This document shows, piece by piece, positions 3,127-17,552 of a DNA stretch of 21,162 nucleotides. Made by a program: the position numbers and the translations under genes. Positions within the stretch are counted from its first letter, which is position 1; each line of letters opens with the position of its first letter. The notes under the pieces were generated by a model. It was not told the origin of the DNA, searched no databases, and saw only the letters and a program-made list of their open reading frames with translations. Source of the stretch: a virus; the IMG/VR virus record IMGVR_UViG_3300034103_001310, positions 1-21,162 of that record; one strand, given 5' to 3'.

Positions 3127-3141
3127 TTAGGAAGTCGGAGG
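3118..3141 (-). promoter_or_regulatory. Stem-loop enclosing the stop codon of the protease-like gene
   Basis: On the minus strand CCTCCGAC and GTTGGAGG can form an 8-bp stem (one G-U pair) around an 8-base loop, TTCCTAAT, that contains the TAA stop at 3127-3129. It is not followed by a U-tract, so it does not look like an intrinsic terminator. It could mark an RNA-processing or stability site before the next gene, or be chance. Confidence 0.35.
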
Positions 3142-3402
3142 GTTTTCGGAAGTGGTTCGGCGGTAACCGAGTCGCCATAAAATCCTAGCCACGTCAGTAG
3201 CCGTCTCGTCAACGGTGTCCTCTGCCAGATCTGGTTGGCAGGCGTGCAATAGCTCATGCAGGATCGTATCGAGTTCTGATTCGCCGGTAAGACGGTCGGC
3301 TATTGTGATCGTCTTGCCGGTCCAATCGCAGAGTCCCATAAACGGACGCTTCATTTCCTGAAACGTTAGGCGGTAGTATTTTCCGCGAAGTCGGCATCGC
3401 AT
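3127..3402 (-). CDS. Small HELLH zinc-metalloprotease-like protein
   Basis: A 91-residue protein. Residues 49-53 are HELLH, a classic HExxH zinc site in which the two His bind metal and the Glu activates water. A downstream helix has E66 as a possible third ligand (EDTVDETATD). The chain is too short for a full peptidase lobe, but tiny SprT-like or minimal gluzincin-like proteins of this sort occur in phages, usually without a known substrate. It starts one base after the phosphoesterase stop, so the two are translationally coupled, and it shares that gene's high GC. A role in processing virion or host proteins is a guess. Clear metal-binding motif, unknown function. Confidence 0.8.
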   Translation of the reverse strand: MRCRLRGKYYRLTFQEMKRPFMGLCDWTGKTITIADRLTGESELDTILHELLHACQPDLAEDTVDETATDVARILWRLGYRRTTSENPPTS

Positions 3403-3403
3403 G

Positions 3404-4246
3404 CTATTTGGCCCTCAGTGTGTCGTATCGGACGCGACCGGACGAGTTGTGCCAATAGAACCGCAACCAGGCAGATCCTAGTGCTTTGGGCCCGAGCATG
3501 CGCTCGACTTCCCAACCGCCTGAGCCGTCACCCCAGGCGTCTTTGTAGCCTGGGCAACGGATGTGTAGTTGCTCGTCTTGGTAGATCACGCCGCGTTCGC
3601 TGATGCGTTGGCGAGGAATTGTAAACGACCACTCATCGTGAGTGTGGCCTGTTAATACGATATTTGCGTCAGGGGTAAATCCAGCAATCCGAGAAGGCTG
3701 TAATGTTCCCTTTGTGATAATCCCCCCACCACCGGATCCGTGGTAGTGATAAAGTGCTAGAGTGTCTTTGATTGATTTGCTGTCGACGAATCGGAAAAAC
3801 ACCCAACCTCCATAGCCGCTGGCCTCAACGATGCCGCCCATCTGTCGCATGCGAGAAGCGAGGCGGTCGGTTAGGTCGGTCTCGTGTTGTTTGGTGATTG
3901 CGGTTTCGTGGTTGCCTCGACCGGCTACCGCGAATTGTTGCATGTACGGTCGGTAGAAATCGGCAGCGGTGTCGACTAGCAAATCGAAGTAGTTGCTGCC
4001 TTGATGCTCTGGACGCAATGCGTTCTTGTCGGCTCGTTTGTCCCATTTGCCTTGCATCGCGCAGAATAGATCGCCGTTGTCGATGATTGGGGCGTCGAAC
4101 TCGACGGCTTCGTCGAGGTGCTTTTTCTCCAGCGATTGGTCGCATTTCGGGTTGTCGTGGTGAACGTCGGATCGGAGCAAAACCCACTGCTCCCAATCTG
4201 AGTTGCGGGCAAGATCAATCTTGATCTCGACAACATTTCTTTCCAT
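3404..4246 (-). CDS. Calcineurin-like metallophosphoesterase
   Basis: A 280-residue protein if started at ATG 4246. All hallmark motifs of the family are present in order: D27-V-H29, G58-D59 (IDNGDLF), G111-N-H-E114, H167-Y-H169 and G200-H-T-H203, which ligate two metal ions. The family hydrolyses phosphomono- or phosphodiesters, including nucleic-acid ends and cyclic or sugar nucleotides, and the substrate cannot be read from sequence. I prefer the 4246 start because GGAG lies 10 bases upstream. A longer version would begin with TTG at 4306 with no ribosome site. The start lies 32 bases inside the preceding multidomain gene. The gene is clearly GC-richer than that neighbour (41 of 60 bases at 3481-3540), suggesting separate acquisition. 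Confidence 0.93.
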   Translation of the reverse strand: MERNVVEIKIDLARNSDWEQWVLLRSDVHHDNPKCDQSLEKKHLDEAVEFDAPIIDNGDLFCAMQGKWDKRADKNALRPEHQGSNYFDLLVDTAADFYRPYMQQFAVAGRGNHETAITKQHETDLTDRLASRMRQMGGIVEASGYGGWVFFRFVDSKSIKDTLALYHYHGSGGGGIITKGTLQPSRIAGFTPDANIVLTGHTHDEWSFTIPRQRISERGVIYQDEQLHIRCPGYKDAWGDGSGGWEVERMLGPKALGSAWLRFYWHNSSGRVRYDTLRAK

Positions 4247-6245
4247 TTTTCGCAGACTCCATACCATTGCAGCATTCCTGTGTTTGGATGTTTGGTTTTT
4301 GCTCAATAGAAATCACCGGGCGCTTCGTAATTTTCGAAATAATCTGAGCTTGCTGGTACGAGGACTCGACAAACCACTTGACATTGAATTTCTGGCATTG
4401 CGCTGCTTTCCAACTCCCAATGCAATTGCGATTGCGTTCTTTCAATGTACCTGGATACATGACGAGCATACCATAGCTTATGCGATATCGCTTTAGCCAC
4501 TCCTCAGTCAAATCTCGGTACGCTTCTCGCCTTGCAGTAATGATGTACGGGACGGTGTAATCTCGCGGAGTTCTGATGGGCTTCCGTGTCGTCATCCATG
4601 CTTGATATCGAGGACCGTCGTCATCGTCTTCTAAAGGGCAATCCTCGCACAACACTCCATCGAAATCTATTCCGACATTATGGTTCCTGAGAATGTATCC
4701 GTTGTTTAGTAAATTCCAGTCAAACAAGTGAGGCCAATCTAAACTCACGGCATACCCAGTTACTTTTTGCCTGCCGTGATTTCCAGCATATACAACATAA
4801 AAAGGCAAGTCGGTGTTTATATTGTCAAATGCTTTCCCGCTACACGTCGAATCGTCAATCACTACCACGCTTCCCGTATGTTCAATTCGCTTTCCGTGTG
4901 TTTCGGGTGATTCGATACGACTGCCTCCACCGATGTACCGCAGCCCATCTGCTGTGATTTCGTATAACGGTACTCCTAGACGCATTGATATGTCGCAAGC
5001 AGCTCGCATTCCAGAACGTGGAACGCCAGCGATACCCGATACGTCTGGATGCTTATCAAGAATAATTTGCGACAAAGACAAGGTATCGCTGGTGAATTTG
5101 TCCCAGGTTATTATTGGCCAAACCAGATCTTTGTTGTTAAGCTGGTCGATGTATTTACGAATAGACTCCAGCCTACTAGGGCAGTTGGAAAAGTGAACGA
5201 AGTACGCATCTTCAAGCCCGTTTTCAAATTCTCCTTTTTTGCGGTCGCCGAACCAGTACTGCCAGTTCCAGCGAGAATCTAGTTTTCCAAGTGTTGCCTG
5301 TCTTTCATATTCCTTGCGTATTTGCTCTCCTATCCAAATTTGTTCGGCACAATGCGTAGTTCCGATATCGACGTTTGGTCTTTTCCAAATGTCGCATGAC
5401 GACTTTCGAGACAAGATTACTCCCGAATTGAATGACACTGGTTGATTTTCGATATTCAACCCGCTGAGGGTGCTAACCGCCTTCCTCTCTCGCGTCAGCC
5501 ATTCGCGGTTCTTGTAGTCTGAGTATTCGTCGTAAACGCAGATTGATTCATTATATTGCTCAAAAATATTTGGAGCGTTCGGCTTAATGACAACATCTGC
5601 ATCGACAAAAAGAACTTCTTCATATTCTTTGGCGAAGTTCCACACCCGAAACTTCTCCATCGGCCCCCATTCTTCGGTATCGTTATCCAGATCGATAAAG
5701 TCGGCATTGACCCGATCCGCGTAGTCCTGCATAAGTGGCCGAGTAAGCTTTAGGATTTCAAGAAAGTGAGATCCGTTTGCCACGGTGATTATTGCTCGCG
5801 ATCGACCGCTATTTGGCCTGCGATTCCTCCAGAGCATGTAAGCTCTATCCATGTCAATTTGCGGTTTTTGCTCCAACAGTTCGCCAGATACGGCGTTATG
5901 AAATTCTACCGTCCACTCGAACCAGTCCTTTTCTGATTTGTATCTTGGTGGAAAACGCTTTAGCAGGTCGTCCGCTTTTCGTTTGCAAGGACAGCTTACA
6001 GGCATAGTCCCCAACACAAGGTCCACAAAATCCTTATCGCCGTTGATTGCGGAATGCAGGCGAGCCCAGATAGCTCGATAAAGAGACCTTCTCACCTCTG
6101 GGTCGTTTGCTTTCTGATGGGCTTTTTTTGCAGGAACAGTTACGGTTTTTTTCCATCCTTTCTTTCCCAAGTACGCTCCGCATTCACAAACGTATGGAAT
6201 GTAGTCAGACGTGACTGGCTTTTTGCAGAATTCGCATTCTTGCAT
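4215..6245 (-). CDS. Five-module fusion: zinc-finger/Erv-like/glycosyltransferase/phosphoribosyltransferase/HAD phosphatase
   Basis: A 676-residue protein. Residues 4-22 hold CxxC...CxC, a zinc-finger-like knuckle. Residues about 51-139 resemble Erv/ALR sulfhydryl oxidases (C85-P-C87, then FPPRYKSEKDWFEW and H116-N117), but with CPC in place of the usual CxxC. Residues about 151-365 look like a GT8-type nucleotide-sugar transferase with D215-A-D217 and FNSGVIL. Residues about 378-515 form a phosphoribosyltransferase with GVPRSG and the PRPP loop VVVIDDSTCSG (460-470). Residues about 522-648 are a HAD phosphatase: D527-F-D529-G-V, T570, K613, E627. A 20-residue tail carries two CC pairs. Known dual-domain ribofuranosyltransferases transfer 5-phosphoribose from PRPP and then remove the phosphate with a HAD domain, so glycan or protein ribofuranosylation is a reasoned inference. 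Start ATG 6245 overlaps the previous stop (TAATG), with GAGGTG upstream. Confidence 0.88.
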   Translation of the reverse strand: MQECEFCKKPVTSDYIPYVCECGAYLGKKGWKKTVTVPAKKAHQKANDPEVRRSLYRAIWARLHSAINGDKDFVDLVLGTMPVSCPCKRKADDLLKRFPPRYKSEKDWFEWTVEFHNAVSGELLEQKPQIDMDRAYMLWRNRRPNSGRSRAIITVANGSHFLEILKLTRPLMQDYADRVNADFIDLDNDTEEWGPMEKFRVWNFAKEYEEVLFVDADVVIKPNAPNIFEQYNESICVYDEYSDYKNREWLTRERKAVSTLSGLNIENQPVSFNSGVILSRKSSCDIWKRPNVDIGTTHCAEQIWIGEQIRKEYERQATLGKLDSRWNWQYWFGDRKKGEFENGLEDAYFVHFSNCPSRLESIRKYIDQLNNKDLVWPIITWDKFTSDTLSLSQIILDKHPDVSGIAGVPRSGMRAACDISMRLGVPLYEITADGLRYIGGGSRIESPETHGKRIEHTGSVVVIDDSTCSGKAFDNINTDLPFYVVYAGNHGRQKVTGYAVSLDWPHLFDWNLLNNGYILRNHNVGIDFDGVLCEDCPLEDDDDGPRYQAWMTTRKPIRTPRDYTVPYIITARREAYRDLTEEWLKRYRISYGMLVMYPGTLKERNRNCIGSWKAAQCQKFNVKWFVESSYQQAQIISKITKRPVISIEQKPNIQTQECCNGMESAKNGKKCCRDQD
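4257..4260 (-). promoter_or_regulatory. Ribosome site that decides the phosphoesterase start
   Basis: GGAG on the minus strand, 10 bases before ATG 4246. The longer in-frame alternative at TTG 4306 has no comparable site, so this supports the shorter 280-residue phosphoesterase. The site lies inside the coding sequence of the multidomain gene. Confidence 0.55.
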
Positions 6246-7423
6246 TATGTCGTCACCTCAACGTAATAGCAGCACTCTGGATCAAAAAGATCCACGACGG
6301 GACGGCATTGGCAAGCAACGTCAGATCCTTTAATGCAATACGGACCAAACAGCCATCTTCCAGTGTTGGCCCCATGATTGCATTCGTATTCAATTGGCGA
6401 TCTGCTCGGAGCGTCTCCTTCGCTTTGAACGCAACCACCAACATTAGCTAATTGATATTTTTCTATTCCGTAGGCAGCTGTACAAGTAAATCTGAATTTG
6501 AACTGTCCGCAACAGTGAAACGTGTCTGTCACCCATGTAGCGTCAATGTCGTCATAGCAAAGCTCAAACTCGCAGTCAACAAGTTGAATCAGTCGCTCGC
6601 ACGAAGAAGTAGTAAAAACCCTCACATTAAGGCAGTAAGGCAATTGAATAAATTCGTCATTGTATTCTACATTGTCAAGGCAATCGCATGTTGAGCAGCG
6701 AGGGCAATTCAGTTCTTGGGTTTTTGGTGGATTGCTATTGAAATGCCGCTGAAAAACGAAATCGTCAATAAGCATATCTTTTTCGGACAAAGAGAAACCA
6801 CAGTAAAATCCATCGGCGTGTAGCCCAGGAGACTCTATTGAAATTGACCCACCTAAAGTTACACCACCAATTCTCGCGCAAAAAAGATTTTCGTCTATTT
6901 CCGCTTGAAACCCGCGAGCGCCTCCAGTTTCTCCAATAATGATTTGCTTTTGCTTGAGAATGGTTTCGACCCCAGCGGAAACTACGCCCAGCCGCAACCA
7001 GCTTTGATCGGCGGGAAGAACGCTACCTCCCAATCGTTCGTACTCTGCGAAGTAGTAGTTTTCTGAAGTGCAAACTTCAGGGTCTCCACTTGATGTTTTT
7101 TTCGCATTAAGAATGATTCTGTACTTTTGGCCGCTGCCATAAGACGCGGTCCTGGGGATTTCGTTGGCTGTCCAAAAAAGAACCGCCATAGACCCTACCT
7201 CGTCTGGGTGCTTGACATTGCATAATGCAATAGAATTTGGAATCTCGCACCTAGCTCGGTAAGTTGGCGATGTAACGATGTAGTAGTCGCCAGGATCGTC
7301 ACACCATCCTTTTCCTTTGAATGGCGCAGAAGTTCGCAAGCCTAGCGGAGTACCGGCTGCGCGAGTGAAGTCATCTTGGAAAACGATGCACTCAACGCAA
7401 CAACATTTGTGCCATCCAGCCAT
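6245..7423 (-). CDS. Cys-rich LamG-like jellyroll protein
   Basis: A 392-residue protein with 28 cysteines. It opens with a CCCVEC cluster, then FQDDFTRA (15-22), the usual entry strand of LamG/concanavalin-like jellyrolls. LIDDFVFQR (218-226) is typical of the exit strand, so residues about 14-230 are probably one carbohydrate-binding-type fold. The remainder (240-392) is a Cys-dense region starting CPRCSTCDC and including CC pairs at 304-305 and 384-385. No signal peptide is seen. It lies 12 bases after the equally Cys-rich 356-residue gene and overlaps the start of the multidomain gene. A virion surface or adhesion role is inferred from operon position. The cysteines could form disulfides or bind metal. 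No family name can be given with certainty. Confidence 0.85.
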   Translation of the reverse strand: MAGWHKCCCVECIVFQDDFTRAAGTPLGLRTSAPFKGKGWCDDPGDYYIVTSPTYRARCEIPNSIALCNVKHPDEVGSMAVLFWTANEIPRTASYGSGQKYRIILNAKKTSSGDPEVCTSENYYFAEYERLGGSVLPADQSWLRLGVVSAGVETILKQKQIIIGETGGARGFQAEIDENLFCARIGGVTLGGSISIESPGLHADGFYCGFSLSEKDMLIDDFVFQRHFNSNPPKTQELNCPRCSTCDCLDNVEYNDEFIQLPYCLNVRVFTTSSCERLIQLVDCEFELCYDDIDATWVTDTFHCCGQFKFRFTCTAAYGIEKYQLANVGGCVQSEGDAPSRSPIEYECNHGANTGRWLFGPYCIKGSDVACQCRPVVDLFDPECCYYVEVTT

Positions 7424-15981: not shown

Positions 15982-16536
15982 TTAACCTACGTTTGTGCTG
16001 AAGTCTTCTACCGTTATGTTTTTCGTTCCGGAAATCTCATCTGGTATCAAATCTGTTTTCGCCTTGATAGCTGCGTTTAGGTCTGTCTGCTCTTTTACTG
16101 CGTTCATGACGCCAACAGCAGGTATTCCGATCGTCCCGGAAGATCCAAAGCCAAGAATTGCTCGAATTGCAGTTTTTTCTGGCGTAGTCCAATCCGTATT
16201 TACACCGACACCGATATATCTATTCGCAAGTGAAAAAGACGCTACCTGGACACCGACGACGCTTATGTCATCTACCGTCCCAGATGTTATGACGACTCGA
16301 AAATCGGATCCCGTTGAATAAAAAGCATCTGAAGTCGGGATTGAGAATAAGTGGTGCCCGGTCACTCCATCAAAATCCACGGTCAGCGCAGACGCTTCAG
16401 AACGTTGAGTGAGACTACCGTCTTTATAAACACTCAATTGAGGTGAGCCAGCAAGTGTAATAGGAGTACCGTCTGACCTTCGGGTGTTAAATGCACCCCG
16501 TATTACGGAACCTGGATTAAAATCTCCGATGTACAT
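15982..16536 (-). CDS. Tail-associated beta-domain protein
   Basis: A 184-residue protein. MYIGDFNPGSVIRGAFNTRR, then SVYKDGSLTQ, DFDGVTGHHLFSI and AFYSTGSDFRVVI, is a pattern I know from many phage tail-region proteins: one immunoglobulin- or BppU-like beta domain covering about 1-110. The remainder is a helical extension (KEQTDLNAAIKAKTDLI). Its ATG overlaps the stop of the tandem-repeat gene (TAATG). It probably takes part in a tail-tip or fibre-base structure, but which part is unknown. Confidence 0.82.
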   Translation of the reverse strand: MYIGDFNPGSVIRGAFNTRRSDGTPITLAGSPQLSVYKDGSLTQRSEASALTVDFDGVTGHHLFSIPTSDAFYSTGSDFRVVITSGTVDDISVVGVQVASFSLANRYIGVGVNTDWTTPEKTAIRAILGFGSSGTIGIPAVGVMNAVKEQTDLNAAIKAKTDLIPDEISGTKNITVEDFSTNVG

Positions 16537-17552
16537 TATTGGACCAAGCCTCCATGTAGCATGTCGCCAAAACCTATTGGACCGCCTGCGCCGATCAGGC
16601 TAAATTTATTGGGTAGTTTATGAACCACGGTTACACTTCCAACAATTGGAGAGCCTGCATCTATAGCAACAGGAATTAAGCCGTGGTTTTGGGTCAGCGT
16701 GACGGAGCCAAGTACAGGAATTCCGGCAGCAAAATTGCTAGGTACTATTGCCCCAGGGGGTATTACCGTAGGCCCGCCTAGTACCGGCGCACCGGCAGCT
16801 AGGTTGCTCGGCGTTAGACTGTGGTTCTGCGTTAGCGTGACAGTACCAATTAAAGGAACACCACTTAGGATCGCCACTGGCAAGAACGAGTGCAATTGCG
16901 TCAGCGCGGTTGTGCCGACAACGGGATCGCCAGCTGCTAGGTTGTTCGGTGCAACTGCATGGTTCTGCGCCAGCGTAGAGGTTCCGACAACAGGCGTTCC
17001 TGCTGTCAGGTTCGTTGGTGCGATTGCTCCAGCGAGCGAGACGGTCAGCGTCTCGAGGACCGGCGTTCCGGCTACCAGGTTGCTCGGTGCGACCGCGTGA
17101 TTCTGCGTCAGTGCTGACGCGCCGAGCACCGGCGATCCAGCGGTGATGCCGGTTGGTGCGACCGCGTGATCCTGAGTCAGTGCCGACGTGCCGACAACCG
17201 CCGATCCCGCTGCGAGGCCAGACGGCGAGAGCGAGTGGGTTTGCGTGAGGCTGGTCGTTCCGAGGACAGGCGTCCCAGCGGTGAGATTCTCGGGGCTGAG
17301 CGTCCCGGCGAGTGTGACGGTGGTCGTTTCGGGGACAGGTGTTCCGGCAGCAAGATTGCTAGGTGCAAAACTGTGGTCTTGACTTAGTGCAGTAGCACCC
17401 AGTACTGGCGTGCCGCCGACTAAATTTCCTGGGGTGAGGGAGGCATTGTTGTTAGTTCCCAGCAATCCACCAAAAAGAAACAACAGCCCCTGCTGTCCGC
17501 CCAATGGCGTTGAGACTGTTGGCAATGCGGGAACACGATTGCGTAATGGCAT
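16536..17552 (-). CDS. Tandem-repeat tail protein, 12 units of about 23 residues
   Basis: A 338-residue protein. After a hydrophobic N-terminal section (about 1-34), residues about 35-312 are 12 tandem units of 22-24 residues following NH-x-L-x-P-x-N-L-x-A-G-x-P-V-x-G-x3-L-T-Q. Every fourth junction replaces the LTQNH type by TVTLAG or a relative, giving an exact 92-residue higher-order period. The C-terminal 25 residues are different (KFSLIGAGGPIGFGDMLHGG). Such Pro/Gly-rich arrays are known from phage tail fibres and are probably extended, beta-rich rods. GC content changes strongly inside the gene. AGGGG lies about 10 bases before the ATG, after the LamG-like gene. Confidence 0.87.
   Translation of the reverse strand: MPLRNRVPALPTVSTPLGGQQGLLFLFGGLLGTNNNASLTPGNLVGGTPVLGATALSQDHSFAPSNLAAGTPVPETTTVTLAGTLSPENLTAGTPVLGTTSLTQTHSLSPSGLAAGSAVVGTSALTQDHAVAPTGITAGSPVLGASALTQNHAVAPSNLVAGTPVLETLTVSLAGAIAPTNLTAGTPVVGTSTLAQNHAVAPNNLAAGDPVVGTTALTQLHSFLPVAILSGVPLIGTVTLTQNHSLTPSNLAAGAPVLGGPTVIPPGAIVPSNFAAGIPVLGSVTLTQNHGLIPVAIDAGSPIVGSVTVVHKLPNKFSLIGAGGPIGFGDMLHGGLVQ
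16615..17450 (-). repeat. Coding tandem array of 66-72 bp units
   Basis: DNA of the 12 repeats in the 338-residue gene. Unit lengths of 22, 23, 23 and 24 codons recur in that order, making 276-bp blocks. Individual units have diverged at the third codon position. The array is protein-coding, not CRISPR or satellite DNA. Confidence 0.85.

Follow-up and report, generated by a model that had tools for sequence, protein, structure and literature searches.

A glycosyltransferase, phosphoribosyltransferase and phosphatase fused in one protein of a phage structural gene cluster, most probably a ribofuranose-adding glycan enzyme

The window analysed here, a stretch of 21,162 bases that is a complete IMG/VR record, encodes a real, conserved and unusual fusion protein. 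It belongs to a phage structural gene cluster and most probably adds ribofuranose to a glycan. On balance, we favor the view that it is a multi-step glycan-modifying enzyme encoded among tail genes, in which a GT-A glycosyltransferase, a phosphoribosyltransferase (PRTase) and a HAD phosphatase would together add ribofuranose, the likeliest acceptor being a cysteine-rich protein encoded upstream.

The start codon of the fusion gene shares bases with the stop codon of the preceding gene (TAATG), and the two genes are therefore probably translationally coupled. The location within a phage structural cluster, proposed in an earlier sequence-only reading, is borne out by an upstream gene with a Pfam match to the SU10 adaptor and by tail-like genes that are syntenic with those of other phages. 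The sequence motifs are also found where that reading had placed them (C4xxC7 and C20xC22, DAD at residues 215-217, VVVIDDSTCSG at 460-470 and DFDGV at 527-531; Table 1). Elsewhere in the window, positions 3127-3402 encode a small protein of 91 aa that contains a zincin-like HELLH motif and is kept beside the locus in L008 and L146, and positions 16536-17552 encode a 338-aa protein of repeated units (LAAGTPVLGTTALTQNHSLAPSN and similar), probably a fibrous structural protein.

Table 1. Features of the fusion gene and its surroundings; positions are those of the window unless a locus is named.
Feature	Positions	Strand	Evidence
Metallophosphoesterase-like gene, downstream neighbour	3404..4306	minus	phrog_7339 E=4e-11; 70% identical to, and syntenic with, L146
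676-aa fusion gene	4215..6245	minus	ATG start; full-length relatives L006-L009, 61% identity
HAD phosphatase (T4 Pnkp phosphatase-like), residues 520-650	4296..4688	minus	fold, profile; D527, D529, R572, K613, E627 in 70/70
DFDGV, HAD motif I, residues 527-531	4653..4667	minus	D527 and D529 in 70/70
Type-I PRTase domain, residues 376-518	4692..5120	minus	profile, predicted model, fold match
VVVIDDSTCSG PRPP loop, residues 460-470	4836..4868	minus	D464 69/70, D465 70/70, G470 68/70
GVPRSG pyrophosphate loop, residues 407-412	5010..5027	minus	R410 68/70, G412 70/70
GT-A (GT8-like) glycosyltransferase, residues 149-372	5130..5801	minus	Pfam GT8; PBCV-1 A64R; homologues L146, L151-L158
DAD metal/nucleotide-sugar motif, residues 215-217	5595..5603	minus	D215, D217 invariant in 11 relatives
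Erv/ALR-like helical domain, residues 53-145	5811..6089	minus	W60, H64, C85xC87, H116 N117
Cys knuckle CxxC...CxC, residues 4-22	6180..6236	minus	cysteines in sequence
392-aa Cys-rich protein (28 Cys, N-terminal CCCVEC), putative virion protein, candidate acceptor	6245..7423	minus	same position in L006, L151, L153, L158
Other Cys-rich genes upstream of GT or PRTase-HAD genes	L006:5741-6871; L153:3341-4567; L146:3789-4607; L116:5911-7602; L010:6091-7443; L057:3359-4624		

Structure prediction recovered both folds that had been assigned to the C-terminal half, a PRTase at residues 378-515 and a HAD phosphatase at 522-648. In the AlphaFold model of this half (pLDDT 92), the first module has the type-I PRTase fold and matches XGPRT (Z 14.7, rmsd 3.5 over 124 residues), and the second matches the T4 Pnkp phosphatase 5uj0 (Z 11.7, rmsd 2.7 over 120 residues). 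The family profiles match xanthine/purine PRTases (E=4e-12) and Pnkp1 (E=8e-5), respectively; RecA matches in the HAD profile search were rejected as an artefact of many weak pieces. Furthermore, R410, G412, D464/D465, D527, D529, R572, K613 and E627 are retained in 68-70 members of an alignment of 70 sequences, 35 from phages and 35 cellular. The PRPP loop, with its vicinal acidic pair D464 D465 (69/70 and 70/70) and G470 (the three being kept in 68-70/70 sequences), has not been lost in the homologues, and the HAD motifs are complete, with D527/D529, K613 and E627 present and T570 of motif II being T or S in all 70. The succession of a PRTase and a HAD phosphatase in one chain thus holds, since the folds match and hardly any catalytic residue varies in either domain. 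Between the window and L006, these two parts are 75-79% identical, and pN is 0.14-0.17 despite near-saturated synonymous sites, which indicates strong purifying selection on both domains.

The GT8-like transferase with its DAD motif was likewise confirmed. The Pfam GT8 score of 26.4 bits is above the cut-off of 24.3, the DxD motif is invariant, and the best structural match of the modelled part (residues 147-369) is A64R of PBCV-1 (Z 14.1, rmsd 3.4 over 183 residues; next fold 11.9), in a predicted model of the GT and Erv parts that is weaker (pLDDT 68) and, for the GT, weak in its C-terminal half. A64R (PDB 2p6w, 2p72, 2p73) acts in major-capsid glycosylation, although it belongs to an algal virus and is 16% identical to the GT part.

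The N-terminal modules fared less well. The Erv/ALR-like segment falls under the Pfam cut-off in the single window sequence, but Evr1_Alr is matched by 9/9 family members, the family profile matches the solved Erv1 structure 2hj3 (E=1e-9), and the predicted model matches 3gwl (Z 11.5, rmsd 2.0 over 90 residues), a helical fold for which Z alone says little. Like the Erv1/ALR sulfhydryl oxidases, the domain has the helical fold and, from the FAD site, the W..H and HN motifs, H116 N117 being invariant. However, the CxxC redox pair of these oxidases is replaced by CxC in the window and its GT-carrying relatives, with CGSC in L116 only. The helical domain therefore stands but the canonical active-site motif does not, and because of the CxC we claim neither membership among the sulfhydryl oxidases nor oxidase activity. 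Similarly, the CxxC and CxC cysteines at the N-terminus are present as described; from these cysteines only we infer a knuckle, and its metal binding. The knuckle is kept in L006 and L151-L158 and missing from L146. The term “five-module enzyme” is thus too strong for these two parts, in which catalysis is hypothetical.

The full architecture is kept in four viral contigs (L006-L009), with 61% identity over the length of the protein. Proteins in L151-L156 consist of the knuckle, Erv-like and GT parts only, in the same place and with the same gene order as in the window; L146 encodes the Erv-like and GT parts, and its next gene is the metallophosphoesterase gene that the window also has downstream; and L116 encodes the Erv-like domain with the PRTase-HAD unit and no GT. 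These architectures imply that the chain is modular, with the PRTase-HAD part gained or lost at one junction, and this part is best seen as a detachable C-terminal unit because related phages have the knuckle, Erv-like and GT parts alone at the same locus. When viral contigs were scanned for exact peptides of the whole 676-aa protein, there was no match, so that alignment was needed to find relatives, and tblastn searches of 50,697 records of isolated phages with the full protein, the PRTase-HAD half and three family relatives returned no two-domain match. As a test for a planctomycete host, the Erv-GT profile was run against 294 genomes without a match, a result that is uninformative for want of a positive control.

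The PRTase-HAD unit is widespread in cellular genomes. Our scans recovered at least 390 bacterial and archaeal genome loci and 52 viral loci, the weakest viral matches being to the HAD part only. The 80 cellular loci that were kept (L018-L097) come from Alphaproteobacteria, Bacteroidota, Planctomycetota, haloarchaea and others, and on rhizobial plasmids the two domains occur together, with 90% of the unit covered in tblastn. Rhizobial and other cellular proteins such as WP_077988892.1 have the same two domains and catalytic residues as the phage protein and are about 30% identical to it across 90% of the unit, but have no knuckle, Erv-like or GT-A part. In the records examined, their annotation goes no further than “phosphoribosyltransferase family protein”, and we found no dedicated family model for the two-domain family.

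The genes around 26 diverse cellular homologues, 88 in all and mostly no more than two genes away, include up to 17 Pfam matches to one GT4-type model, 16 to GT2, 7 to Wzx-type flippases and 3 to Wzy/ligase, counts that have no matched background; glycosyltransferases account for no more than a few percent of genes. Further leading families are methyltransferases, ABC exporters, O-antigen ligase and sulfotransferase, and none of the leading families in this sample are salvage or Ter genes. For example, L042 has Wzt and a GT2 on either side, L045 has two GT4 genes around it, and a flippase precedes L050. The loci are thus polysaccharide loci and not salvage operons, and by this context the cellular homologues are not confined to nucleotide salvage. 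This cellular family is a candidate group of ribofuranosyltransferases. In Rhizobium sp. Kim5 (L002:606-13248), the PRTase-HAD gene is located near genes for a UbiA prenyltransferase, GtrA, an FAD oxidoreductase and an SDR, a set resembling a pathway for polyprenyl-phosphoryl pentofuranose; also nearby are a gene of the caspase family and a type VI secretion locus. In a viral contig (L124:6272-8140), the unit is extended at its C-terminus by about 330 aa, which look GT4-like by eye and are possibly an independent GT fusion.

In a maximum-likelihood tree, the window PRTase-HAD belongs to a phage clade of 13 rows (support 99/86) that is clearly separated from the members in cellular polysaccharide loci. 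An inner subclade of 12 rows (99/70) consists of the window, L006, L008, L102, L116, L013, L103, L108, L105, L129, L010 and the planctomycete-MAG locus L057, and most of its members have N-terminal Cys modules or an Erv-like domain. A Cys-rich gene (3.4-7.5% Cys) is located immediately upstream in 11/11 distinct loci of this subclade versus 1/21 other phage loci (Fisher p 9e-8, with threshold and pattern chosen post hoc and loci partly related). For all phage members p=2.5e-4, and for the cellular control p=0.81; L107, where the upstream gene is a GT2 by eye, was left out of the pattern. Many of the Cys-rich proteins have an N-terminal CCC-x-C cluster, and no convincing Pfam or PDB relative was found for those of the window family, L116 and L103. 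Cys-rich genes also precede GT-only forms, including L146, although the search for homologues of the Cys-rich protein of the window did not recover the one in L146. A tail-end cassette in L102 (7761-11046) combines a Cys-module PRTase-HAD gene with a methyltransferase-like gene (by eye), a sulfotransferase and a sugar epimerase, and methyltransferases lie downstream of the L013 and L057 enzymes.

The glycan reading is backed by the polysaccharide loci of the homologues and by the top match of the GT part, a capsid-glycosylation GT. In the proposed mechanism, the GT-A domain would move a sugar from a nucleotide sugar onto the acceptor, the PRTase would transfer 5-phosphoribosyl from PRPP onto a hydroxyl of that glycan, and the HAD domain would take off the 5-phosphate so that ribofuranose remains. 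As the acceptor we favor the Cys-rich protein of the adjacent upstream gene, which is a putative virion component, because the phage clade of the window sits directly downstream of Cys-rich genes; the knuckle and the Erv-like module may then serve its docking or redox maturation. A bolder proposal, which we offer as a tentative possibility, is that the phage-specific clade represents PRPP-dependent ribofuranosyltransferases of a second kind, distinct from gPRT/CriT, that act on a glycan of adjacent Cys-rich virion proteins, and that its fusion here to an initiating GT-A and to an Erv-like module recognising or oxidising the Cys-rich substrate has produced a self-contained machine for virion glycosylation and maturation.

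We also considered the possibility, unlikely in our view, that the same enzymology is directed at a host surface glycan, for receptor masking or seroconversion during infection. GT8 enzymes also make host-type glycans, which counts against the favored reading, the cellular relatives are placed in surface polysaccharide loci by their context, and some phage members adjoin GT2 genes. However, the window gene overlaps a gene of the structural cluster and is co-oriented with the tail genes, and the constant neighbour in the clade is a Cys-rich protein and not a membrane export system.

Quite improbable is a role in nucleotide chemistry, in which the PRTase and HAD domains make a nucleoside-like metabolite or serve salvage while the GT acts independently. 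The PRTase is XGPRT-like, the HAD domain resembles polynucleotide 3'-phosphatases (Pnkp), and W510 is kept and aligns near the purine-stacking Trp of XGPRT, so that a nucleotide-type substrate retains some probability. In 6-oxopurine salvage PRTases, an Asp in the PRPP loop (DDxxD-TG) is the general base. This position is C468 in the window and an Asp in 5/70 members, and we therefore rejected membership in this group. A precedent is provided by the Ter modules of jumbo phages, in which PRTases with HAD phosphoesterases have been proposed to make nucleoside signals (PMC7824862), but the cellular neighbours in our sample are glycan genes, with salvage and Ter genes absent from the leading families, and the unit is here fused to a GT-A domain. 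We favor PRPP-dependent phosphoribosylation and dephosphorylation over salvage, since the residues of the PRPP loop and the HAD domain are near-invariant and the general-base Asp is not, and salvage is further demoted by the glycan-related genomic context. Modification of phage nucleic acids, by phosphoribosylation or glycosylation of modified bases or by end repair, is very improbable: the HAD domain resembles the T4 Pnkp phosphatase and some phage PRTase-HAD genes adjoin DNA methyltransferases, but the gene lies among structural genes, the scan of window proteins revealed no gene for DNA hypermodification, and the clade adjoins Cys-rich proteins and sugar-modifying enzymes.

If the favored glycan reading is correct, PRPP-dependent ribofuranosylation extends to virions, and Cys-rich phage virion proteins are tied to dedicated modifying enzymes. 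Furthermore, a large family, represented at hundreds of loci in cellular organisms as diverse as Mesorhizobium and haloarchaea, would become candidate ribofuranosyltransferases of surface polysaccharides, predicting which organisms should carry ribofuranose.

The fusion logic is already known from bacterial capsule enzymes, and we found no description of this enzyme family and its virion-cluster setting in the literature searched. The sequence-only reading knew of no such fusion in a virion gene cluster; the setting holds, but Cj1432 and Bcs3 are precedents for joining a GT, a HAD phosphatase and a ribosyl-PRTase. Its ribofuranosyltransferase logic stands in the succession of PRTase and HAD; the PRTase itself, with its vicinal DD and reverse order, is not demonstrably of a known ribofuranosyltransferase family. 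Because domain order and active-site layout differ, we do not file the phage protein in the gPRT-PRP/CriT-CrpP family. No gPRT or CriT structure was named among the best 60 of 103 PDB sequence matches or the 50 best fold matches, which does not prove the absence of kinship. Cj1432 of Campylobacter jejuni, a GT4-HAD-ribosyl-PRTase capsule enzyme with a demonstrated three-reaction logic (PMC12096443), likewise joins its sugar transferase to a HAD phosphatase and to a PRPP-dependent transferase for ribose-5-P in one chain, but its GT is a GT4 and not GT-A/GT8, its order is GT-HAD-PRTase instead of GT-PRTase-HAD, it serves a cellular capsule and it lacks an Erv-like module. In H. influenzae b, Bcs3 (CroT-CrpP-CriT) follows the same logic with a ribitol-phosphate transferase (PMC10299916), and the gPRT-PRP ribofuranosyltransferases combine a PRTase-fold transferase with a HAD phosphatase for phosphoribosylation followed by dephosphorylation (PMC11127046). 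Both share with the phage protein this pair of domains and the two-step logic, the latter on the phage side by analogy. In Bcs3 and Cj1432, the phosphatase precedes the transferase, whereas the PRTase comes before the HAD domain in the phage protein. Finally, D680 and E818 on separate loops replace the vicinal DD in CriT, which also has helical-bundle insertions (PMC10299916), whereas the phage family has a vicinal DD and a compact PRTase.
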